Below, piece by piece: positions 9,134 to 63,411 of a DNA stretch of 64,000 nt. Source of the DNA: Crossiella cryophila. GTDB lineage: Bacteria; Actinomycetota; Actinomycetes; Mycobacteriales; Pseudonocardiaceae. The stretch spans positions 6,163,501 to 6,227,500 of the forward strand of contig NZ_JACHMH010000001.1 of the NCBI RefSeq assembly GCF_014204915.1. Reading direction: 5' to 3'. How positions within the stretch are numbered: position 1 is the first letter of the stretch; each line of letters begins with the position of its first letter. A program made the translations under genes and the position numbers. The notes beneath the pieces are model-generated. The model had not been told where the DNA came from and made no database searches. It was given only the letters and a program-made list of their open reading frames with translations.

Positions 9134-9924
9134 TCATTGCCCTCGCCATTGAACACGTCCGCGGCGCAGTGCGGTGATCCACTCCAGCGCGCTGTCCGGA
9201 CCCGGCAACGCGGCGATCCGGCCAGTGCCCGGGTGAACAGGTCGCCGGACTCGCGGTTGAAGATCGTGCCCAGGGTGAAGTAGAAGCCCGGCCGGCCGGG
9301 GATGACCCAGTCCGGGACCTCGGTCCGCGGCCGAGGGAGGAGTGGGCGGAAGGCGCGGGCGGTGGCGGGCAGTGGGTCGGCCGGATCGCGGAAGGACAGC
9401 GGCAGCCCGGTCAGCACCAGGTGGCGCAGCATGTCCAGCCCGGGATCCGGCGGCAGTCCCTGGGCGGCCCGCCACTCGTGCAACGGTCCGCCGACGACCG
9501 CGTCGGTGGCGAAGCCGCCCGCGGGCATGCAGGTCATCGAGGCGCAGGGCAGCCCGAGCCGGTCGGCCGCGATGGCCGCCGCGTAGTCGGTCTCGTCCCG
9601 GACCAGGACATCCGGCTGCCACTGCGCGAGCAGGTCCAGCAGGCCGGGCAGGCGTTCGCCGGTGAGCCGCCGGGCGAAGCCCTCCCGCAGGTCGCGGCGT
9701 TCGCGTTCCGGGTCAAGGGGTGCCAGCGCGGTGATCGCGGCGGCGTTGTCCGGGCTGCCGGAGCCGACCGCGAAGGCGGTGAACCCGGCCGCGGCCACCA
9801 CCGCACGCAGTCCGGGACCACTGGCGAAGGCCACGGTGTGCCCGGCCGCCAGTGCCGCGGCGGCCAGTGGGGTCAGCGGGTCGAAGTGGCCGTTGCCGCC
9901 GGCGAAGGTGAACAGGATGCGCAC
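9134..9924 (-). pseudogene. truncated MGT-type glycosyltransferase
   Basis: The start MRILFTFAGGNGHFDPLTPLA and the later RPGFYFTLGTIFN are clear hallmarks of GT1 family (macrolide/antibiotic) glycosyltransferases. About 240 codons of the acceptor-binding N-domain are intact. Near 9222 the frame shifts by one base (FTRALAG then IAALPG continues in the neighbouring frame) and reaches a stop at 9134. The sugar-nucleotide-binding C-terminal domain, normally about 150 residues with a HGG motif, is absent. Without it the product should be inactive. The remaining unshifted frame runs into the beta-lactamase gene. I regard this as a decayed gene. Confidence 0.75.
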
Positions 9925-49759: not shown

Positions 49760-50932
49760 ATGACCAGCAACCGCAACGTCCTGATCTCCGGCGCCAGCAT
49801 CGCCGGACCCGCACTGGCCTTCTGGCTGCGCCGCTACGGCTTCAACCCCACCGTCGTCGAACGCGCCCCCGTGCTGCGCCCCGGCGGGTTCGCGGTGGAC
49901 TTCCGCGGCCCGGTGCACCTGGAGGTGCTGCGCCGGATGGACATCCTGGCGGAGGTCAGGGCCAACCAGACCGATGCCGGCGAGATGATCGTGGTGGACC
50001 GGGACGGGCGCCAGCAGGCCAGGCTGCCCGCCTACCTCACCGCGGGCGAGGTGGAGATCCTGCGCGGCGACCTGAGCCGGATCATCCACGACCGCACCAA
50101 GGACGACGTGGAGTACGTCTTCGGCGACTCGATCACCTCGCTCACCGAAACTCCCGACGGCGTTGAGGTGACCTTCGAACGCGGTGCGCCGCGCACCTTC
50201 GACCTGGTCGTCGGCGCGGACGGGCTGCACTCCAACGTGCGGCGGCTGACCTTCGGCGCGGAGGAGCAGTTCCTGCGTCACCTCGGCTACTACGTGTGCG
50301 GCTTCTCCATGCCCGGCCACCCCGGCCTGGACAAGCACAACCGCATCTACAACGAACCCGGTCGAGGGGCCGCGCTCGGCGGTGTCGAGGCCGGCACGCT
50401 GATGGTCTTCGCCAGCGACCCCCTCGACTACGACCGGCGGGACCCGCAGCAGCAGATGAAGCTCGTCGAGCGGGCCTACGCCGGGATGGGCTGGCAGGTG
50501 CCCAAGATCATCGACGCCATGTGGGAGGCGCCGGACTTCTACTTCGACTCGATCAGCCAGATCCACCTCGACCGGCTCTCCCAGGGACGGGTCGTGCTGC
50601 TGGGCGACGCCGGGTACGGGGCGACCTGCGGCGGGCTGGGCACCGGGCTGGCCGTGGTGTGCGCGCACGTGCTGGCCGGGGAACTCCAGGCCGCCGACGG
50701 TGATCACCGGGTGGCGTTCCGGCGGTACGAGCAGATCGTGCGGGACTACGCCACCGGGTGCCAGAAGACCTCGGACAACGCCGGGCCGTTCCTGGCCCCG
50801 CGCACCGCCTTCGGCATCCGGCGGCGCAACCTGATGTACAAGGCGCTCGCCTCGCCCAGGCTTAGTGCATTTTTCAACAAACTGACCACGAAGGCCGCTT
50901 CCGGTCTGCAACTTCCGGCCTATCCGCGTTGA
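49760..50932 (+). CDS. FAD-dependent monooxygenase
   Basis: 390 residues. VLISGASIAGPALAFWLRRYGF is the dinucleotide motif (SGASIAG variant common in actinomycetes), GADGLHSNVRRLTFG the DG motif and VVLLGDAGYGATCGGLGTGLAV the GD motif. Class A flavoprotein hydroxylase; aromatic or polyketide substrates are usual. CAGGCT lies 6 bases before the ATG. The C-terminal part LMYKALASPRLSAFFNKL is basic/helical, perhaps membrane-associated. The last 60 bases of the gene are noticeably AT-richer. Confidence 0.88.
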   Translation: MTSNRNVLISGASIAGPALAFWLRRYGFNPTVVERAPVLRPGGFAVDFRGPVHLEVLRRMDILAEVRANQTDAGEMIVVDRDGRQQARLPAYLTAGEVEILRGDLSRIIHDRTKDDVEYVFGDSITSLTETPDGVEVTFERGAPRTFDLVVGADGLHSNVRRLTFGAEEQFLRHLGYYVCGFSMPGHPGLDKHNRIYNEPGRGAALGGVEAGTLMVFASDPLDYDRRDPQQQMKLVERAYAGMGWQVPKIIDAMWEAPDFYFDSISQIHLDRLSQGRVVLLGDAGYGATCGGLGTGLAVVCAHVLAGELQAADGDHRVAFRRYEQIVRDYATGCQKTSDNAGPFLAPRTAFGIRRRNLMYKALASPRLSAFFNKLTTKAASGLQLPAYPR

Positions 50933-51165: not shown

Positions 51166-52299
51166 TTGGGGCCTGTGTTCGAGCCGGCGAGCGTCGACGA
51201 CATCGACGAGTTACTCCGGCTCTACCGCAAGGTCTACGGCCGCGCCTACGCGCTGCCGCTGGGCACCGATCCGCAGGTGATGGCCGCCGAGATCACCTCT
51301 GACCGGACGAGCTGGCTGGTGGCCAGGGACAACGGCGACCTGGTCGCCTCCATCGTGGGCAACGTCGAACCCGCCGACCGGCTCGGCAAGATGCAGGGCC
51401 TGGTCGTCCACCCCGAGCACCGCGGTGGCGGCCTGGCCCAGCAGGCGGTCAGCTCGCTGGCGGAGCTGATCCTCTCCGATGGGCGCGCGGACTCCGTCTA
51501 CGGCACCGCGCGCACCACCTCCACCGCCCCGCAACGGGTCTGCCTGCGCAGCGGGTTCAAGGCGCTGGGCATCTTCCCGAACCTGCGCAAGGCCGCCCGG
51601 CACGAGACCATGGTGCTGCTGGCCCGGCACCAGGACGGCGTGCTCGAACAGCGCCACCCGGTGGAGCGGGTCCCGGCCAGCCTCGGCCCGTTGCTGGACG
51701 CGGTCGAGCAGGTCGTGGGTCTGCCCACCCGGCCAGAGCTGGTGCCGGATGTGGAGGTGCCGGTGCGGCGTGGGGAGAGTGCGCCGGAGGTCGAGCTGAT
51801 CAGCGCGCCGCGGTTCGTGCTGCGCCGCTACAACGAGCAGCTCACCAACGCCGACCGGCGCTTCTATCCCTTCCACACCCCGAACGTGCTGCTGGCCGCG
51901 GCCGACGGCTCCTACGAGGTGTTCGCGCACCTGTCCGGCAACGACGGCTACTGCACGCTGATCGGGGCCAACCCGGACGCGATGGCGGTGGCCCGGCACC
52001 TGGACCTGCTCATCGAGCAGCTCAACGACTACGGCGCCTTCTACATCGAGACCCTGGTGCCCCTGCACGCCTTCGACGAGCTGGGCCAGCTGCTCGCGCA
52101 CGGCTTCCTGCCCGCGGCCGCCTACCCGGCGATGCGCCGCGACGGCGAGCTGTTCCGGGACTACGTGGTCATGGCGCGCACCATGCAGCCGCTGGACTTC
52201 CGCGGCCTGGCCATCGACGCGGCCTTCCAGCCGTTCACCGAGCAGTACATCGAAGCCTGGAAACAGATGTATCTCAACACACGCGGGGTGTTCCGGTGA
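51166..52299 (+). CDS. GNAT acetyltransferase with C-terminal extension, first gene of LuxC/LuxE operon
   Basis: 377 residues from TTG 51166 (GGAGAG 7 bases upstream). GNAT domain at about 1-150: SIVGNVEPADRLGKMQGLVVHPEHRGGGLAQQAV in outline has the acetyl/acyl-CoA loop HRGGGLA. From about 195 a second domain (LRRYNEQLTNADRRFYPFHT; DGYCTLIGANPDAMAVARHL; DYGAFYIETLVPLHAFDEL) again looks GNAT-like but lacks the loop. The next gene's GTG overlaps the stop by 4 bases. The tight operon implies it acts with the acyl-activating and acyl-reducing proteins, perhaps transferring an acyl group. Confidence 0.8.
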   Translation: MGPVFEPASVDDIDELLRLYRKVYGRAYALPLGTDPQVMAAEITSDRTSWLVARDNGDLVASIVGNVEPADRLGKMQGLVVHPEHRGGGLAQQAVSSLAELILSDGRADSVYGTARTTSTAPQRVCLRSGFKALGIFPNLRKAARHETMVLLARHQDGVLEQRHPVERVPASLGPLLDAVEQVVGLPTRPELVPDVEVPVRRGESAPEVELISAPRFVLRRYNEQLTNADRRFYPFHTPNVLLAAADGSYEVFAHLSGNDGYCTLIGANPDAMAVARHLDLLIEQLNDYGAFYIETLVPLHAFDELGQLLAHGFLPAAAYPAMRRDGELFRDYVVMARTMQPLDFRGLAIDAAFQPFTEQYIEAWKQMYLNTRGVFR

Positions 52300-53462
52300 G
52301 TTCCTACCTCGGACCGGTCACGGTCCCCGACCCGGCCGCGCTGGACGCGGTGCAGCGGCTGTGCGACCTGGCCGCGCCGTACGCGGCCGGCGCTGACGCG
52401 GACGAGTTGTTCGTGGCGGCGATGAACGAGTCCAACGCCTGGCATGCCGCGCGCTCGCCGTTCTTCGCCTCGCTGTGGCAGAGCAAGGGCCGCGCCGTGC
52501 TGGAGTCCGCTGAGGACCTGGCGCGGCAGCCGTTCGTGCACGCCAACTTCTTCAAGATGCACGAGGTCGTCTCCATCCCGCGCGATGAGGTCAAGTTGCA
52601 CGTGACCTCCTCCGGCACCACGGGCCAGAAGTCGCAGATGTTCTTCGACGAGTGGACCCTGCGCGCCGGGCAGCGGATGGTGGCCCGGATCTTCGACCAC
52701 TACGGCTGGATCGACGACAGCCGCGCGGTGGACTACCTGATCTACACCTACCAGCCCCGGCCGGGCCTGAACCTGGGCGCCTCCTTCACCGACAACTACC
52801 TGTGCGAGTTCGCCCCGGTCAACCGGGTCGAGCACGCCCTGCCCAGCACCGGCACCGGACACGAGTTCGACGCCTTCGGCGCGATCCGCTCCCTGCTGCG
52901 CTCGGCCGAAGACGGTGTGCCGGTGCGGATCCTGGGCTTCCCGGCGTTCCTGTCCTTCACCCTGGACCGGATGCGCAACATGGGCATGAAGCCGATCCAG
53001 CTCGACCCGGCCTCGCTGGTGGTCTTCGGCGGCGGCTGGAAGGGCAACGCGGACAAGCAGATCAGCAAACCCGAGCTGTACGGCAAGATCGCCGAGCAGC
53101 TGGGCATCCCGGACGAGCGGATCCGGGACGGCTTCGGCTCGGTGGAACATTCGGTGCCCTACATGGAATGCGCCAACCACAACATGCACGTGCCGGTCTG
53201 GTCCCGGGTGCTGATCCGCTCGGTGCGCGACCTGTCCCCGCTGGGCTACGGCGAACCCGGTTACCTCCAGTTCGTCTCCCCGTTCATCACCTCCGCACCC
53301 GCGCAGAGCGTGCTGATGGGCGATCTCGCCTCGCTGCACACTCCCGCGGAATGCGGCTGCGGCGCCCCGACCCCGTGGATCCGGATCCTGGGCCGCGCCG
53401 GGCTGAGCCGCAACAAGAGCTGCGCCATCGCCGCCGCCGAACTCTTGAAGGACAAGTCGTGA
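52296..53462 (+). CDS. luxE: LuxE-family acyl-protein synthetase
   Basis: 388 residues. The adenylation motif TSSGTTGQKS lies near 103-112, FGGGWKGNADKQ mid-protein and DGFGSVEHSVPYMEC further on, all LuxE-specific. A C-terminal NKSCAIAAAELL places Cys376 about a dozen residues from the end, where luminous-bacteria LuxE carries its acyl-accepting cysteine. LuxE activates a fatty acid with ATP, holds it as a thioester and passes it to LuxC for reduction to aldehyde. Overlaps both neighbours by 4 bases. No luciferase genes are nearby, so the aldehyde has another use. Confidence 0.88.
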   Translation: MSSYLGPVTVPDPAALDAVQRLCDLAAPYAAGADADELFVAAMNESNAWHAARSPFFASLWQSKGRAVLESAEDLARQPFVHANFFKMHEVVSIPRDEVKLHVTSSGTTGQKSQMFFDEWTLRAGQRMVARIFDHYGWIDDSRAVDYLIYTYQPRPGLNLGASFTDNYLCEFAPVNRVEHALPSTGTGHEFDAFGAIRSLLRSAEDGVPVRILGFPAFLSFTLDRMRNMGMKPIQLDPASLVVFGGGWKGNADKQISKPELYGKIAEQLGIPDERIRDGFGSVEHSVPYMECANHNMHVPVWSRVLIRSVRDLSPLGYGEPGYLQFVSPFITSAPAQSVLMGDLASLHTPAECGCGAPTPWIRILGRAGLSRNKSCAIAAAELLKDKS

Positions 53463-55981
53463 ACCAGCACTACTGGCAGGGCGAGTGGGTCGAGGACGCC
53501 GAGGCCGACCGCAGGCTGGACACCCTGGAGGAGCTGACCCAGCAGGTGCTCGGCGGGGAACCGCTGAGCCCGCTGCTGGTGCTGGCCGCCGCCGACAAGC
53601 TGGTCACCCAGCTCCGTGACACCCAGAGCCCGGTGCGCCGGCGCCTGGCCGACCGGCTGGCCGCCTGGCAGGTGCCCGCGGCCGAGATCGAGCAGACCCT
53701 CACCCAGCTCACCGGTGCGCTGGGGCGGGACACCCTGGAACGCAAGGTGGTCCGCGAACTCGGCGGCATCGACCCTGGTCGGCTGACCCGGTTCGACTTC
53801 CGGCAGGAGATCTTCGAGGCGTGGGCGCCGGTCGGGCTGCTCGCGCACATCGCCCCCGGCAACGCCCCCGCCGCCGGTGCGATGAGCGCCCTGGAGGGGC
53901 TGCTTTCCGGCAACCTCAACGTGATCAAGACCAGTGGCGACGACTCGCGGTTCACCGCCGAACTGCTCGCCGCGCTGGCCGAGGCCGACCCGACCGGGCA
54001 GATCGCGCGCCGGGTGATCGTGCTGCACTACTCCTCCAGCCGCAAGGACTGGCTGGAGCGGATGTGCGCGCCCGCCGACGCGGTGGCCGCCTGGGGTGGC
54101 GAGGAAGCCCTGGCCGGGGTGGCCTCGGTGCTGCGCCCCGGCTGCCGCCTGGTCGACTGGGGCCCGAAGCTCTCCTTCGCCTACCTCACCAAGGCGACCT
54201 GGGCCGAGCCGGACACGTTGCGCGCGGTCGCCGGGGACGTCTGCCTGCTCGACCAGCAGGCCTGCTCCAGCCCGCAGGTGATCTACCTCGACACCGAGGA
54301 CGACGCGGAGGTCTTCGCCTTCGCCGAGCGCTTCGCCGCCGTGCTGGCCGAGACCGTGGCCGCCACCGAGGTCCGCGCGCCCAGTGACCCGGAATGGGCC
54401 GAGATCACCAACACCGTGCTGGTCACCGAGCTGGAGGAACACCTCGGGCTGACCAAGGTGCACGCCGCCGCGGACGGCTCCTGGCGGGTGCTCGCCGACA
54501 CCCGCTCGGCCCTGCGTGCCTCCCCGCTGTTCCGCACGGTGTGGGTGAAATCGTTGTCCCGCAGGAACATCGGCCAGGTGCTGCGGCCGATGCGCCGCTA
54601 CCTGCAGACCGTGGGCCTTGGCGCGGACCGCGACGAGGTGGCCGCGCTGACCCGGGCGCTGATCGGCGCGGGCGTGCAGCGGATCACCATGCCCGGCCGG
54701 ATGCTGGGCAGCTACGACGGCGAACCGCACGACGGGGTCTACGCCCTGCAGCGCTACAGCCGCCGGGTCGATGTGCAACTGGACGCGCGGTTCACCGGGC
54801 ACGCCTGCCTGGACGACCTGGTCTCCTCCCGCCCGCTGCCGCCGCCCGCGGTGCCGGTGACCACCAAGGCCCGCTTCGATGAGTTGCAGACCGACCTGAG
54901 CCGGGCCGAGGTGTTCTTCCGCAGCGGCGGCACCACCGGCGAGCCGAAGCTGTCCGCGTTCAGCTGGGCCGACTACGACGAGCACATGCGGCACGGCGCC
55001 GAGGGCCTGCTCGCCGCCGGGCTGGACCCGCGCACCGACCGCACGATGAACCTGTTCTTCGGCGGTCAGCTCTACGGCGGGTTCCTCAGCTTCTTCTCCG
55101 CGCTGGAACGCCTTGGCGCGGTGCAGTTCCCGATGGCCGGTCAGCAGAACCTGCACGACCTGGTCGCCAAGTCCATTGTGGACAATCGGGTGGACACCCT
55201 GCTGGGCATGCCCAGCTATCTGCTGCGGTTGTTCGACGAGTCCGGCGACACCCTGCGCAACTACCGGGGTGTGCGCAAGATCTTCTACGGCGGCGAGCAC
55301 TTCAGCGAGGCCCAGCGGCAGTGGCTGACCGAGGAGTTCGGCGTCGAGGTCATCCGCAGTGCCGCCTACGGCAGTGTGGACGGCGGCCCGCTGGGCTACC
55401 AGTGCCCGGACTCCCCGGCCAGGGTGCACCACCTCTTCGCCGGCATCCAGACCCTGGAGATCCTGGACCGGGAGGAGGATCGCCCGGTCGGGCCCGGTGA
55501 GACCGGCCGCCTGGTGTTCACCGCGCACACCCGCCGCGGGCAGCGCCTGGACCGCTACGAGATCGGCGACCTGGGCCGCTGGCTGGCCGACGACTGCCCG
55601 TGCGGTCGCCGGACGCCGCGGTTCGAGTTGCTGGGCCGCTCCGGGGATGTCTTCCGCAGTGGCGGGCACTTCCTCAACTACCGGCGGTTCGTCGCGGTGG
55701 CCGATGAGGCCTTCGCCTACGCCGGTGACCTGCAGATCGTCCTCGATGAGCAGGACGAGCGGGAGAGCCTGACCATCCGCCTGGAGCGGGGCCGGGCCAA
55801 CCTGGACCCGAACGCGGTGCAGGCGGAGTTCCTGGCCCGCTACCCGGAGCTGACCATCACCGCGGTCCGGGACAACCTGGTGGACCTGCGCGTGCAGCTG
55901 ACCGATCCGAAGACCTTCGACCGGACCGGGGCCAGCGGCAAGCTGGTCGCGGTGGTCGACCGGCGCGCTCGCAACAGCTGA
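53459..55981 (+). CDS. LuxC acyl-CoA reductase fused to a second LuxE/PaaK-like domain
   Basis: 840 residues, GTG start overlapping the luxE stop. Residues 1-440 are LuxC-like: EAWAPVGLLAHIAPGNAPAAG, NLNVIKTSGDDSRF and the catalytic Cys269 in LLDQQACSSPQ. Residues about 450-840 are an adenylating LuxE/PaaK-type domain with FRSGGTTGEPK (485-495), FYGGEHFSE, AAYGSVDGGPLGYQC and GRSGDVFRSGGHFLNY. Unlike the separate LuxE it lacks the C-terminal acyl-accepting Cys. The fusion would reduce an activated carboxylic acid to an aldehyde with NADPH. It ends before a strong hairpin. Confidence 0.85.
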   Translation: MNQHYWQGEWVEDAEADRRLDTLEELTQQVLGGEPLSPLLVLAAADKLVTQLRDTQSPVRRRLADRLAAWQVPAAEIEQTLTQLTGALGRDTLERKVVRELGGIDPGRLTRFDFRQEIFEAWAPVGLLAHIAPGNAPAAGAMSALEGLLSGNLNVIKTSGDDSRFTAELLAALAEADPTGQIARRVIVLHYSSSRKDWLERMCAPADAVAAWGGEEALAGVASVLRPGCRLVDWGPKLSFAYLTKATWAEPDTLRAVAGDVCLLDQQACSSPQVIYLDTEDDAEVFAFAERFAAVLAETVAATEVRAPSDPEWAEITNTVLVTELEEHLGLTKVHAAADGSWRVLADTRSALRASPLFRTVWVKSLSRRNIGQVLRPMRRYLQTVGLGADRDEVAALTRALIGAGVQRITMPGRMLGSYDGEPHDGVYALQRYSRRVDVQLDARFTGHACLDDLVSSRPLPPPAVPVTTKARFDELQTDLSRAEVFFRSGGTTGEPKLSAFSWADYDEHMRHGAEGLLAAGLDPRTDRTMNLFFGGQLYGGFLSFFSALERLGAVQFPMAGQQNLHDLVAKSIVDNRVDTLLGMPSYLLRLFDESGDTLRNYRGVRKIFYGGEHFSEAQRQWLTEEFGVEVIRSAAYGSVDGGPLGYQCPDSPARVHHLFAGIQTLEILDREEDRPVGPGETGRLVFTAHTRRGQRLDRYEIGDLGRWLADDCPCGRRTPRFELLGRSGDVFRSGGHFLNYRRFVAVADEAFAYAGDLQIVLDEQDERESLTIRLERGRANLDPNAVQAEFLARYPELTITAVRDNLVDLRVQLTDPKTFDRTGASGKLVAVVDRRARNS

Positions 55982-56033: not shown

Positions 56034-57524
56034 TCAGCTCGTCCCGAGCCAGCGCTTGAGGGCGACCGCCAGACCGGCGAGGTCGCCGGAGTCCGCGGCC
56101 CAGGCCACGAAACCGTCCGGCCGCACCAGCAGTCCGCTCAGTCCGGCGCCGTTCGCCTTGCCCCGCACCAGATCCAGGCGGTCGGCGTAGGGCCTGGCCA
56201 GTTCGGCGAGGTCCTCGTCCCCGGTGAGATCGACGAGCAGGGCCCGGCCGCCGCGGGTGTGCTCGGCCAGCCGGGTGCCGTCCTCGAACTGCAGGGCGGG
56301 CATCAGCGCGCCGGTCAGTGGATGGCCCTCGCCCAGGTCGTAGTGCTGCCACAGACCGGAGACCCGCCGCGCGTAGTAGGTCGCCCCGTCCCCGGTGCCG
56401 AGGAAGTCGGCGACCAGACCACGCAGCGCGGTGCTGTAGGGGTCACCGCGCATCACCGCCACCTGGGACCGGGTCCACTCCAGCACCCAGGCGCCGATCG
56501 GGTGCCGCTCGCCGGTGTAGGTGTCGAGCAGGCCGTCGGGCGCCCACCCGTGGACGGTGGCGGCGAGCTTCCAGCCCAGGTTGACCGCGTCGCCCAGGCC
56601 CAGGTTGAGGCCCTGGCCGCTGAACGGCGGGTGCACGTGCGCGGCGTCCCCGCACAGCAGCACCCGGCCACGCCGGTAGGTGCTGGTCTGCCTGGTGTGG
56701 TCGGTGAAGCGGGTGCCGCCGGGGGCGACCTCGGTGACCCGGACGTCCTGGCCGCTGACCCGCCGCAGACTGGCCTCCATCTCGGCCGCGGTGACCGGTG
56801 CGGCGCGGTCGGCCGGGGGCCCGTCCAGCTCGAAGGTGCGCATCCAGCCCGGTTTCGGCCCGTAGACGTACATGCCGGTGGGCGTGTGCTGCCAGCCGCT
56901 GCCCAGCAGGTCGGCCCCCACCACGGTGCCCGCCGCCTGGCGGGCGGTCATCGTCGGTTCGGCGCCGGGGAAGTCGAATCCTCCCTGACGGCGCACCAGA
57001 CTGCGGCCGCCATCGCAGCCCACCAGCCAGGCCACCCGGACCTCGCCATCGTCCAGGTGCACGGTGACCCCGTCCTCGTCGGCCTCGAACCCGGTCACCT
57101 CGACCCCGCGCCGGACCTCCAGCCCCAGCTCGGTCGCGTACTGACCGAGGAAGCGCTCCAGCTCGATCTGCTGGATGTGCAGGTACCAGTCCGGGCCGTG
57201 CCCACGCAGGCTGGGATCGTCCGGGTCGACGGGCGCGGCCGGGACCAGGATCCCGCCGAAGTGCCCGACGAACGGTGACCGCTTTCCCTTGTCCAGGAAC
57301 GGCGACTGCTCGGCCGCGGCCAGCAGTGCCGGGAGCAGTCCGCGCCGCTCGAAGGCCGCCACCGAGGCGGTGTTGATCGCCCCGGCCTTGTTCGTGGTGT
57401 CCAGCTCGCGCAGCCGTTCCACGACGAGCACCCGCACCCCGGCCAGCCGCAGCTCGGTGGCGAGCAGCAGGCCGACCGGCCCGCCGCCCGCCACCAGCAC
57501 GTCGTAGTCCAACCGCGTCGACAT
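56034..57524 (-). CDS. FAD-dependent aromatic monooxygenase (PgaE/rifampicin monooxygenase type)
   Basis: 496 residues. VLVAGGGPVGLLLATELRLAGV (FAD), GCDGGRSLVRRQGGF (DG motif) and LLCGDAAHVHPPFSGQGLNLGLGDAVNLGWKL (GD motif with the long helix of aromatic hydroxylases). The C-terminal third (LLVDLTGDEDLAELARPYADRL; LLVRPDGFVAWAA) is the thioredoxin-like domain of the polyketide-hydroxylase group. Candidates for substrate are aromatic polyketides or rifamycin-like drugs. Divergent from a TetR regulator sharing two operators. Confidence 0.88.
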   Translation of the reverse strand: MSTRLDYDVLVAGGGPVGLLLATELRLAGVRVLVVERLRELDTTNKAGAINTASVAAFERRGLLPALLAAAEQSPFLDKGKRSPFVGHFGGILVPAAPVDPDDPSLRGHGPDWYLHIQQIELERFLGQYATELGLEVRRGVEVTGFEADEDGVTVHLDDGEVRVAWLVGCDGGRSLVRRQGGFDFPGAEPTMTARQAAGTVVGADLLGSGWQHTPTGMYVYGPKPGWMRTFELDGPPADRAAPVTAAEMEASLRRVSGQDVRVTEVAPGGTRFTDHTRQTSTYRRGRVLLCGDAAHVHPPFSGQGLNLGLGDAVNLGWKLAATVHGWAPDGLLDTYTGERHPIGAWVLEWTRSQVAVMRGDPYSTALRGLVADFLGTGDGATYYARRVSGLWQHYDLGEGHPLTGALMPALQFEDGTRLAEHTRGGRALLVDLTGDEDLAELARPYADRLDLVRGKANGAGLSGLLVRPDGFVAWAADSGDLAGLAVALKRWLGTS

Positions 57525-60748: not shown

Positions 60749-61539
60749 GCCACCAGCCTACCCTTGGGTTGTGAATCCGAACTGAGGTCGGGGCCACAGC
60801 GGACTCACACCCGGTTCATAACTTCCTGACAACTGCCTCCTACTGTCGGTGACGGCCACCCCACCGCCGAAGGGACCCCGCTGGTGCGACACGAAGTCAC
60901 TCCACCCCAAGTAGACGGTCCTTGAAAGGAGCCTGAACATGAGGGCCGTCTCGGATCAGTGTCCAGATCCGTCCCCACGCTCGCATGCGTCGCTGGTAAC
61001 GGCGGGGTGTGAAGCCGAGTGTGAAAGCCCAAGAGCGGCCCGTGCCATCGGGCCGCAACAGGTGAAGGGGAAGATTGGACGGGCAAACGCAAGTGAACCC
61101 TCGATGACGCCTCGTTATCCCTACACCACGCCGATGGCGACGTTCTCGGTGGTGCTAGGGCCTGGCGCGGAAGAGCGCGAAGCGGCCTCCATCCTTTGCG
61201 AGATGGAGGATTGGACACCGCAGGCCCCGGGGTTAAGAGGGTGCCCTACCCCAATCATGTCTTGAAGGAGTGGAACGTGGAAACCCCGATGGAGTCCGGG
61301 AACAACATGCCGGTAGGCCAGAGGCGACAACGGCTTAATTCTCCAGCGGGAACAGGATGATCCGAGAAGCAAAGGCCGGTAGGGCGAAAGCTCAGGGGAA
61401 ACCGGGAGCAGCGGCGGCTCCGCCGTCCCGCATAACCCGCCGGATACGGGCGGATGCCCGGCCCGAAAGGGAGCAGACGCGGATCAGGTAGGCCCGTGAA
61501 GACCACCTGTCAGGAAGTCGGAACCGAGGGACAAGTTAG

Positions 61540-63309
61540 ATGCCGAAACAGGCGGGAGCGACCGCCGAGGCGGCGCCTCTGCCAGCATCGGTGAACGGAC
61601 CCAAGGACTACGCTCGGCAATGGCACAGCATCGACTGGGCTAGAGGCGAAGCGCGAGTACGGCGACTGCGGCAGCGAATCTTCAAGGCCGCGCGGGAACA
61701 GGACCTGTCCAAGGTCCGGAACTTGCAAAAGCTTATGCTGCGGTCACACTCGAACACACTTGTCAGCGTGAAGAGGGTGACTCAGTTGAGCACCGGCCGA
61801 CGAACGGCGGGCATAGACCAGGAGACGGCACTGACTCCGACGGAGCGGGGACGGATGGTGGCGAAGATCGCTGCTGATCCGCTGTCTCGTGGAGCCCGCG
61901 CGGTCCGTCGCGTGTATATTCCGAAAGCGAATGGGAAGCAACGCCCCCTGGGGATTCCCGTGCTGCTCGACCGCGCACGTCAAGCGCGCGCCAAGAACGC
62001 ACTGGAACCCGAGTGGGAAGCCCGGTTCGACGAACGAACCTACGGTTTCCGCCCTGGGCGAGGCTGCCACGACGCGGTCGAGGCCATCTTCAACACCTGC
62101 GGCACGAAACGAGCCAAGAGGGTGTGGGTTCTCGACGCCGACCTGTCAGCCGCGTTTGACCGCATCAGCCATGAACACCTGCTCAGAGCCATAGGATCGT
62201 TCCCCGGTCGGGGGCTGATCCGAGCCTGGCTTCGAGCGGGAGTCATGGAGAACGGCCGGTTCTCTCCCACCGAGGAGGGGACGCCGCAGGGTGGCGTTAT
62301 CAGTCCTTTGCTCCTCAATATCGCGTTGAGCGGGATGAGCACGGCCGTCGGCGGCCCCAGCAATTCCGAGTCCAGCTGGGCGCGGCGGGGCAGGCCGACG
62401 CTGGTCAACTACGCCGACGACTTCGTGGTGCTTTGTCACAGCGAAGCGGAAGCGTATGGGATCAAGGAGTCGCTGGCGCGATGGTTTGCTCCCAGAGGGT
62501 TGAATTTCAATGAGGAGAAGACGCGAGTCGTCCACCTTCGTGATGGATTTGATTTTCTGGGGTTCAACATCCGTCGCTACAACGACAAAATGATCATCAA
62601 GCCCAGCAAAGAGGCCGTCAAGAGGGTCCGGAAGAGGCTCCATGACGAGGTGCATTCCCTGCGGGGAGTGAACGCCAAGGCCATGGCGAAGAGGCTCAAT
62701 CCTATCATCAAGGGATGGGCTACTTACTACCGGACGGTGGTGTCCAAGAAGACGTTCAAGTCCTTGGACAGTCATATGTACAGACTCGCTTTGAAGTGGG
62801 GAAAGCATACGCACCCGAAGAAGTCGATAGCCTGGGTTGTCTCCAGGTATTTCGGCCGGTTCAATTCACTCAGGCAGGACAGGTGGGTGTTTGGTGATCG
62901 GGAAACCGGAGCCTATGTTCACAAGTTCGCTTGGGTCAGGATCGAAAGGCACATTCAGGTCAAGGGGGACAGTTCCCCTGACGATCCGAGCCTGGAGAGA
63001 TACTGGGCGAGTCGCGTACGCAAGAAGATGCCGACGACCGCGGACAGAATGTCCGTTGCGTTGGCGGACCGCCAGAAGGGGATCTGTCCGCTGTGTAAAC
63101 AGCCGCTGGTCGCCGGTGCCGAGTATGAACCAGACAATGTGCGCGACTGGGCGCGATGGTTCACGGCATCCATGAAACCGCTGCAACGGCAGCGGCTCGT
63201 GCTTCGGCGGGATGGCGGCTCGGATGAGAAACCGAATCTTCGCCTTGTACACGCTGAATGCCTGCGTCAGCTTCATGCTGCGCAAGGCAGGAAGGTTGGT
63301 AAAGCATGA
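61540..63309 (+). CDS. ltrA: group II intron-encoded reverse transcriptase/maturase with HNH endonuclease
   Basis: 589 residues. N-terminal HSIDWARGEARVRRLRQRIF and RTAGIDQE, then RT blocks including YIPKANGKQRPLGIP, VLDADLSAAFDRISH, GTPQGGVISPLLLNI and the catalytic YADD in LVNYADDFVV. The X/maturase region follows (GWATYYRTVVSKKTFKSLDSHMY in outline) and a C-terminal HNH: CPLCKQPLVAG ... LRLVHAECLRQLH. All parts look intact, so the intron may be mobile. Start ATG 61540 has GAGGGACAAG upstream. It resembles the chloroplast-like class. Confidence 0.92.
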   Translation: MPKQAGATAEAAPLPASVNGPKDYARQWHSIDWARGEARVRRLRQRIFKAAREQDLSKVRNLQKLMLRSHSNTLVSVKRVTQLSTGRRTAGIDQETALTPTERGRMVAKIAADPLSRGARAVRRVYIPKANGKQRPLGIPVLLDRARQARAKNALEPEWEARFDERTYGFRPGRGCHDAVEAIFNTCGTKRAKRVWVLDADLSAAFDRISHEHLLRAIGSFPGRGLIRAWLRAGVMENGRFSPTEEGTPQGGVISPLLLNIALSGMSTAVGGPSNSESSWARRGRPTLVNYADDFVVLCHSEAEAYGIKESLARWFAPRGLNFNEEKTRVVHLRDGFDFLGFNIRRYNDKMIIKPSKEAVKRVRKRLHDEVHSLRGVNAKAMAKRLNPIIKGWATYYRTVVSKKTFKSLDSHMYRLALKWGKHTHPKKSIAWVVSRYFGRFNSLRQDRWVFGDRETGAYVHKFAWVRIERHIQVKGDSSPDDPSLERYWASRVRKKMPTTADRMSVALADRQKGICPLCKQPLVAGAEYEPDNVRDWARWFTASMKPLQRQRLVLRRDGGSDEKPNLRLVHAECLRQLHAAQGRKVGKA

Positions 63310-63335
63310 TCCAGCGCGACCCTGGGGGCCCACTT

Positions 63336-63370
63336 GAGCCGTGTGCCGCGACGAGTGGCACGCACGGTTC
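63336..63370 (+). ncRNA. group II intron domain V
   Basis: GAGCCGTGTGCCGCGACGAG and onward to GCACGGTTC forms the short conserved hairpin of domain V (AGC-type catalytic triad region, 35 bases), the ribozyme core. Domain VI follows immediately. Confidence 0.85.
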
Positions 63371-63411
63371 TGAGGGGGGACCGCCGCAGCAATGCGGCGG
63401 TCCTACCCGAC

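Follow-up and report, generated by a model that had tools for sequence, protein, structure and literature searches.

What does an actinomycete make with LuxE and LuxC, the components of the Lux fatty acid reductase, in a place where no luciferase gene is found? The question is raised by three adjacent genes of Crossiella cryophila (contig NZ_JACHMH010000001.1), which lie in a stretch of 64,000 nucleotides (positions 6,163,501 to 6,227,500), here termed the window; all positions given below are those of the window, unless a locus is named. A preliminary description of this DNA, made from the letters alone, had proposed that the genes encode a GNAT protein, a LuxE and a LuxC fused to a second ligase, and that they form a dedicated pathway. 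Our analysis indicates that these genes very probably make up most of a leup-type operon, i.e., a route independent of nonribosomal peptide synthetases (NRPSs) to a peptide aldehyde of the leupeptin kind, such as acyl-Leu-Leu-argininal or a near relative of it.

Sequence and gene calling confirm all three predicted genes, which are located on the forward strand. The first gene (51166..52299, starting with TTG at 51166 or GTG at 51175) codes for a GNAT N-acyltransferase, the N-terminal part of which matches Pfam Acetyltransf_1 (8.6e-8); in the homologue of Crossiella sp. SN42 the called start is the residue equivalent to GTG 51175. The second gene (52296..53462) codes for a LuxE-type acyl-protein synthetase of 388 residues (Pfam LuxE, 3.3e-26), and the third (53459..55981) for an 840-residue fusion protein, in which a LuxC reductase (approximately residues 1-440; Pfam LuxC, 5.7e-85) is followed by a PaaK-like, AMP-forming ligase (approximately residues 450-836; Pfam AMP-binding, 6.1e-9). 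The 4-base overlaps previously described are real: the motif GTGA joins the GNAT stop to the LuxE start (52296..52299) and the LuxE stop to the start of the fusion (53459..53462), both on the forward strand. The fused ligase had been called LuxE/PaaK-like, and only the latter half of this label stands, since PaaK-type AMP-binding models (Pfam, NCBIfam PaaK) match the domain and Pfam LuxE does not. The fusion contains the sole strong match to LuxC (PF05893) in the 10.06 Mb genome, which consists of a single contig; four other matches are weak (23-26 bits).

The catalytic residues are intact, as had been claimed for both cysteines. Upon alignment to the LuxC-LuxE complex 7xc6, Cys376 of LuxE and Cys269 of LuxC each coincide with a cysteine of the corresponding chain; we take these to be the acyl-carrying residues. 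Cys376 is kept in all 85 aligned LuxE rows and Cys269 in 88 of 90 fusion rows, the remaining two being gaps. The ligase lysine of the fusion (Lys828) is conserved in 89/90 rows, and that of the stand-alone PaaK-like ligase introduced below in 81/82, with a gap in the one remaining row of either alignment.

Two further genes, coding for a ligase of approximately 420 residues and a major facilitator superfamily (MFS) protein, recur near the first relatives of the fusion. Both are also present in the genome of the window, 2.5-5 kb past the window end and on the reverse strand: a PaaK-like stand-alone ligase (window-equivalent positions 67698-68984, about 12 kb from the operon) and an MFS exporter (about 66511-67692). 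The ligase is 89% identical to a protein of Crossiella sp. SN42 and matches Pfam AMP-binding weakly, under the curated cut-off; the transporter matches MFS_3. A five-gene set is complete in this genome, comprising GNAT, LuxE, LuxC-PaaK fusion, stand-alone PaaK and MFS. Allokutzneria (L008, L009) and Lentzea (L039) have all five genes side by side as GNAT-LuxE-fusion-PaaK-MFS, and in the majority of Streptomyces loci the contiguous order is PaaK-MFS-GNAT-LuxE-fusion. Within the genus Crossiella, the MFS gene is present in the window's genome and in strain S99.2 (L006); in the locus of strain SN42 (L007, 12568-16842) a PaaK-like ligase lies near the operon and no MFS gene was found. The dedicated pathway envisaged earlier, with carboxylate activation, reduction and acyl transfer but no luminescence, is retained in our interpretation, with the addition of a third ligase and an exporter that had been missed outside the window.

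Relatives of the fusion were retrieved in 85 stretches of public genomes, the best 80 of which were kept as loci. These 80 genome contigs, four plasmid loci, five Enterobacterales loci and the window constitute a set of 90 loci (tblastn); some contigs end within the gene set, and therefore, the gene counts are partly lower bounds. LuxE is present in 86 of the 90 loci; in 83 of these 86 its gene immediately precedes that of the fusion in the same orientation, and in the other three a gap of 216-378 bases separates the two. Such a search for the gene order had been called for in the preliminary description. PaaK was found in 83/90 loci, MFS in 46/90 and GNAT in 86/90, where 71 loci have a GNAT like that of the window and 15 one of a second type; upon clustering of the neighbours of the first relatives no family beyond the set occurs in more than 9 loci. 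Since the fusion relatives mostly have the same partners, the arrangement is far beyond chance. The gene set, its homologies, its intact catalytic residues and its co-conservation are direct observations. The 90-locus counts exclude two loci with LuxE-LuxC pairs (L092, L161), a degenerate locus (L141) and two additional records termed H2 and H6.

The link to leupeptin comes from Gammaproteobacteria, among them nematode symbionts, whose leup operon was reportedly described by Li et al. in 2020. According to published accounts, leupABCD comprises four genes on 5,831 bp with an adjacent transporter and published primers (PMC8283571), leup operons occur in P. luminescens, Xenorhabdus and K. oxytoca (PMC11480411), and leupeptin of Xenorhabdus bovienii is ascribed to separate AMP-dependent ligases and a reductase (PMC11212599).

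Enterobacterial genomes were located using E. coli Mdh as a ruler. The order to which genome G260 belongs has the fusion in 2 of 394 genomes; the fusion is also encoded in 15 of 377 genomes of the family of genome G777 (two of these matches being partial) and in 30 of 30 genomes of the genus of G777; the family and genus searches for G777 together yielded 39 distinct carriers. The Enterobacterales operon has the order LuxE / LuxC-PaaK / PaaK / GNAT and spans about 5.7-5.8 kb where complete (L090, L110, L112-L115, L150-L159). Three of 12 carriers (G1469, G1526, G1318) also possess a LuxC above the luminescence equivalog cut-off (894-901 versus 750 bits), at a locus separate from the fusion operon, and six carriers checked from the genus of G777 contain no LuxC above that cut-off. 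Most simply, the luminous carriers would be Photorhabdus, and the genus with 30 carriers out of 30 would be Xenorhabdus.

The published primer leupB_r encodes EQLKDH, and the fusion of one enterobacterial locus (L155) reads EQLK at residues 19-22. With this placement, the published amplicon length puts the start of leupA 1,163 bp upstream of leupB; the LuxE start lies 1,144 bp (L110) or 1,129 bp (L090) upstream of the fusion. Size, gene order, the EQLK site of this one fusion and the presence in luminous genomes agree with the published descriptions, and the Enterobacterales operon, a candidate leupABCD, is provisionally taken here as leup. Compared to L110 (L090 in brackets), LuxE of the window is 48% (48%) identical, the fusion 40% (40%) over about 760 residues, and the stand-alone PaaK of the window's genome 35% (38%).

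Similar to leupABCD of Klebsiella, Photorhabdus and Xenorhabdus, the actinomycete set employs separate AMP-dependent ligases and a reductase, and no NRPS. The total size of the four leup genes matches the enterobacterial operon, where the transporter lies beside the genes; in the actinomycete set, in contrast, an MFS gene is part of the set itself. Moreover, the actinomycete GNAT is longer and probably tandem, the gene orders differ (either beginning with GNAT or reading PaaK-MFS-GNAT-LuxE-fusion), and Crossiella has the genes in two separate blocks.

The composition of the set fits leupeptin because three AMP-forming domains, one GNAT and one reductase stand against three carboxyl activations (two for peptide bonds, one for reduction), one acetylation and one reduction. 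The substrates, the order of the steps and the product are inferred. The GNAT would act as a leucine N-acetyltransferase and transfer an acetyl group from acetyl-CoA to leucine. The two PaaK-type ligases, stand-alone and LuxC-fused, would then adenylate acetyl-Leu and acetyl-Leu-Leu, which would be joined to leucine and to arginine, respectively; either ligase could perform either step. Subsequently, LuxE would adenylate the finished peptide acid and load the peptide onto Cys376, LuxC would accept it on Cys269 for NAD(P)H-dependent reduction to the aldehyde, and the MFS_3 exporter would release a protease inhibitor resembling acetyl-Leu-Leu-argininal. The final activation is assigned to LuxE since it adjoins LuxC in 83 of 86 loci, retains its cysteine and pairs with a PaaK-less LuxC in L092 and L161. 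The earlier proposal of an acyl transfer between two ligase sites is not upheld by this scheme, in which peptide bond formation is the more likely task of two among the three ligase domains, rather than delivery of an acyl group to LuxC.

The GNAT was modelled with AlphaFold at a mean predicted local distance difference test score (pLDDT) of 90.4 and a predicted template modelling score (pTM) of 0.89. As we read the model, both halves show a GNAT-like order of elements, suggesting that the protein probably is a tandem GNAT. The best Foldseek matches are single GNATs, each covering one half; tandem GNATs (from clavulanic acid biosynthesis, and a histidine acetyltransferase) are also returned, yet superimpose poorly over the whole protein (root-mean-square deviation 12.6-14.5). 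In Azorhizobium doebereinerae (L047, 13827-15335) the operon GNAT carries an additional histidine-kinase-like ATPase domain (HATPase_c_2) at its N-terminus.

Several findings weigh against a leupeptin-like product or against the equation with leup. The GNAT of the window shows just weak similarity to its enterobacterial counterpart (25% over 97 residues, E 4e-5, for L110) and has no significant match in L090, and at 35-48% identity the substrates of the other enzymes may have shifted. Crossiella has the set in two blocks that converge, and in the window's genome and strains S99.2 and SN42 it does not form one operon. LuxE was not found in 4 of the 90 loci (L042, L043, L071, L077) and PaaK not in 7 (L030, L036, L040, L050, L083, L084, L085), and contig ends do not account for all of these cases (L042, L040); L042 is a real exception to the adjacency of LuxE and fusion, since 10 kb of upstream sequence are available there. 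As to the primers, the exact EQLK stands at the expected place in one of the seven fusions inspected, while L110 reads EQLE, L150 reads AELK and four show nothing similar; neither published primer matches any of 28 scanned loci with fewer than five mismatches.

One alternative shares the leup logic but not the product: the diverged ligases and the different GNAT might assemble another N-acyl peptide aldehyde, with residues other than Leu-Leu-Arg. This is possible, if not our favoured view, and it overlaps with the leupeptin-like reading where the change is small, such that the two probabilities do not sum to one. Apart from the weakly similar GNAT, it draws on ligase identities of 35-40% and on variation among published leup operons, where a homoarginine derivative is ascribed to Xenorhabdus and Photorhabdus but not to K. 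oxytoca, for which a Leu-Lys pyrazinone feature is mentioned (PMC11480411). Conservation is highest, however, in LuxE (48%), which is proposed to activate the C-terminal residue, and nothing in the data points directly to a different product.

Much further from the data is the reduction of an aromatic or other non-peptide acid by a carboxylic acid reductase like GriC/GriD of grixazone biosynthesis, here weighed by its description. GriC and GriD form a two-protein enzyme of actinomycetes (PMC10179220; grixazone-type reduction also in PMC11429834). Yet the recurrent set goes beyond such a pair, with a GNAT, an exporter and two additional ligase domains, and no other neighbour family is widespread among the loci; we consider this role very improbable and set it aside.

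The operon shares LuxE and LuxC domains, with an aligned cysteine in each, with the fatty acid reductase of complex 7xc6, but its LuxC is fused to an extra PaaK-like ligase. The absence of luxAB beside luxC and luxE, noted earlier, is corroborated by a search with the bacterial-luciferase family PF00296, which gave no match in the window; 33 family-level matches occur in the rest of the genome, the nearest at a distance of approximately 55 kb. That a relocated Lux reductase supplies fatty aldehyde here is the least credible explanation and is rejected, given scores far under the NCBIfam luminescence equivalog cut-offs (LuxC 89.2 of 750 bits, LuxE 64.4 of 550), the lack of a luciferase-family match in the window and the coexistence of true LuxC and fusion operon in three genomes; the operon is probably unrelated to light production.

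The leupeptin-like reading assigns the terminal reduction to LuxE and LuxC, and this pair is also found without the ligase domain. On a plasmid of Streptomyces europaeiscabiei (NZ_CP109155.1, L092, 898-9598), LuxE and LuxC are 49% and 45% identical to those of the window; LuxC lacks the PaaK domain and falls on a long branch within the actinomycete leup-type rows of the LuxC tree. The neighbours comprise a YcaO protein, a metallo-beta-lactamase-fold protein, an MbnB/TglH/ChrH-type MNIO and an MFS protein, and just downstream an open reading frame of 53 residues (9437-9598) with a plausible ribosome-binding site encodes four FPFR repeats. Cut after each arginine, the peptide would supply natural substrates for an arginine-carboxylate reductase, and this single locus may hypothetically represent a ribosomal peptide aldehyde pathway. 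Another LuxE-LuxC pair (39% and 33% identical to the window) is located on a Chloroflexota plasmid (L161, 6868-9269), with no PaaK or GNAT annotated within 8 kb. We tentatively raise the somewhat doubtful idea that LuxE-LuxC is a portable reductase for peptide carboxylates with C-terminal arginine, which caps ligase-built leup-type peptides in five phyla, was recruited to a ribosomal pathway in L092 and might account for an unassigned non-NRPS leupeptin route in actinomycetes.

The named hosts of the relatives come from Actinomycetota, Bdellovibrionota, Elusimicrobiota, Bacteroidota and Pseudomonadota, and the nearest LuxC relatives stem from Crossiella sp. S99.2 and SN42. Among 297 genomes of the window's own family searched with PF05893, 108 yield at least one match at E 1e-20, in many cases a partial one. 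Of the 29 loci from other genomes among the matches listed, 25 hold LuxE, LuxC, a PaaK-like domain and a GNAT end; the remaining ones are the degenerate L141 and three other LuxC proteins of 27-29% identity (L142-L144). At least 26 of the 297 genomes are carriers, including the window's genome and four listed genomes of the same genus. Streptomyces noursei and S. albireticuli, two classical leupeptin producers, also carry the set (L029, L034). Among 369 genomes from the class of G001 only G001 itself is a carrier, and none was found among 140 genomes from the family of G260, presumably Pasteurellaceae. Enterobacterales rows fall among Bdellovibrionota rows in the LuxC tree, and because of long-branch warnings we claim no direction of transfer.

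Plasmids and decayed copies add to this picture. The Salmonella enterica plasmid CP054717.1 (L090, 6656-12414), typed as conjugative, bears a leup-type four-gene set, and a second Salmonella plasmid (CP053580.1) also has the fusion; a megablast search with the Salmonella plasmid gene set found none in E. coli genomes. In a relative (L160, 8780-11127) the copy is decayed, with a shortened LuxE, a proline at the LuxC cysteine position and a ligase domain cut short. Streptomyces sp. NBC_00158 (L091, 11235-12602) harbours three annotated I36-family peptidase inhibitors within approximately 2 kb of the five-gene set, on the opposite strand and with one gene between.

In the window, the operon is flanked by two FAD-binding_3 monooxygenases (49760-50932 and 56034-57524; Pfam). 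Neighbour clustering confines recurrence of the former family to strains S99.2 and SN42, and finds relatives of the latter also at the far end of L023 and L038; the latter scores 373.8 of 800 bits on a rifampin monooxygenase model, i.e., under the cut-off. A group II intron of 2.5 kb (60888-63411; reverse transcriptase at 61540-63309, two Rfam intron matches) lies between the two blocks of the set and is absent from the equivalent place in strain S99.2.

Leupeptins are widely used protease inhibitors. A 1969 report, cited by title in PMC11212599, names actinomycetes as their source, and a 2023 paper still places Streptomyces leupeptin among NRPS products (PMC10548850). The same source describes antipain, chymostatin and flavopeptin, short protease-inhibiting peptide aldehydes that probably belong to the same product class but are made by an NRPS with an R domain, rather than by discrete ligases and LuxE/LuxC. 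The livipeptin cluster of S. lividans 66 is likewise a small, non-canonical actinomycete route with an N-acyltransferase, leading to a presumed N-acyl Leu-argininal; it differs by the use of a tRNA-dependent L/F transferase and a C-minus NRPS (PMC10548850).

The open-access literature searched holds no description of the present gene set in actinomycetes, in line with the novelty initially claimed; the claim has to be narrowed, since the set fits the published gammaproteobacterial leup operon. The kind of system is already described in Gammaproteobacteria, and what is newly noted are its members in actinomycetes, whose GNAT differs and which include an exporter of their own. The set represents a concrete, five-gene and NRPS-free candidate route to leupeptin for actinomycetes. 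If this proves true, leup chemistry would reach well beyond the Gammaproteobacteria, where it was first described.

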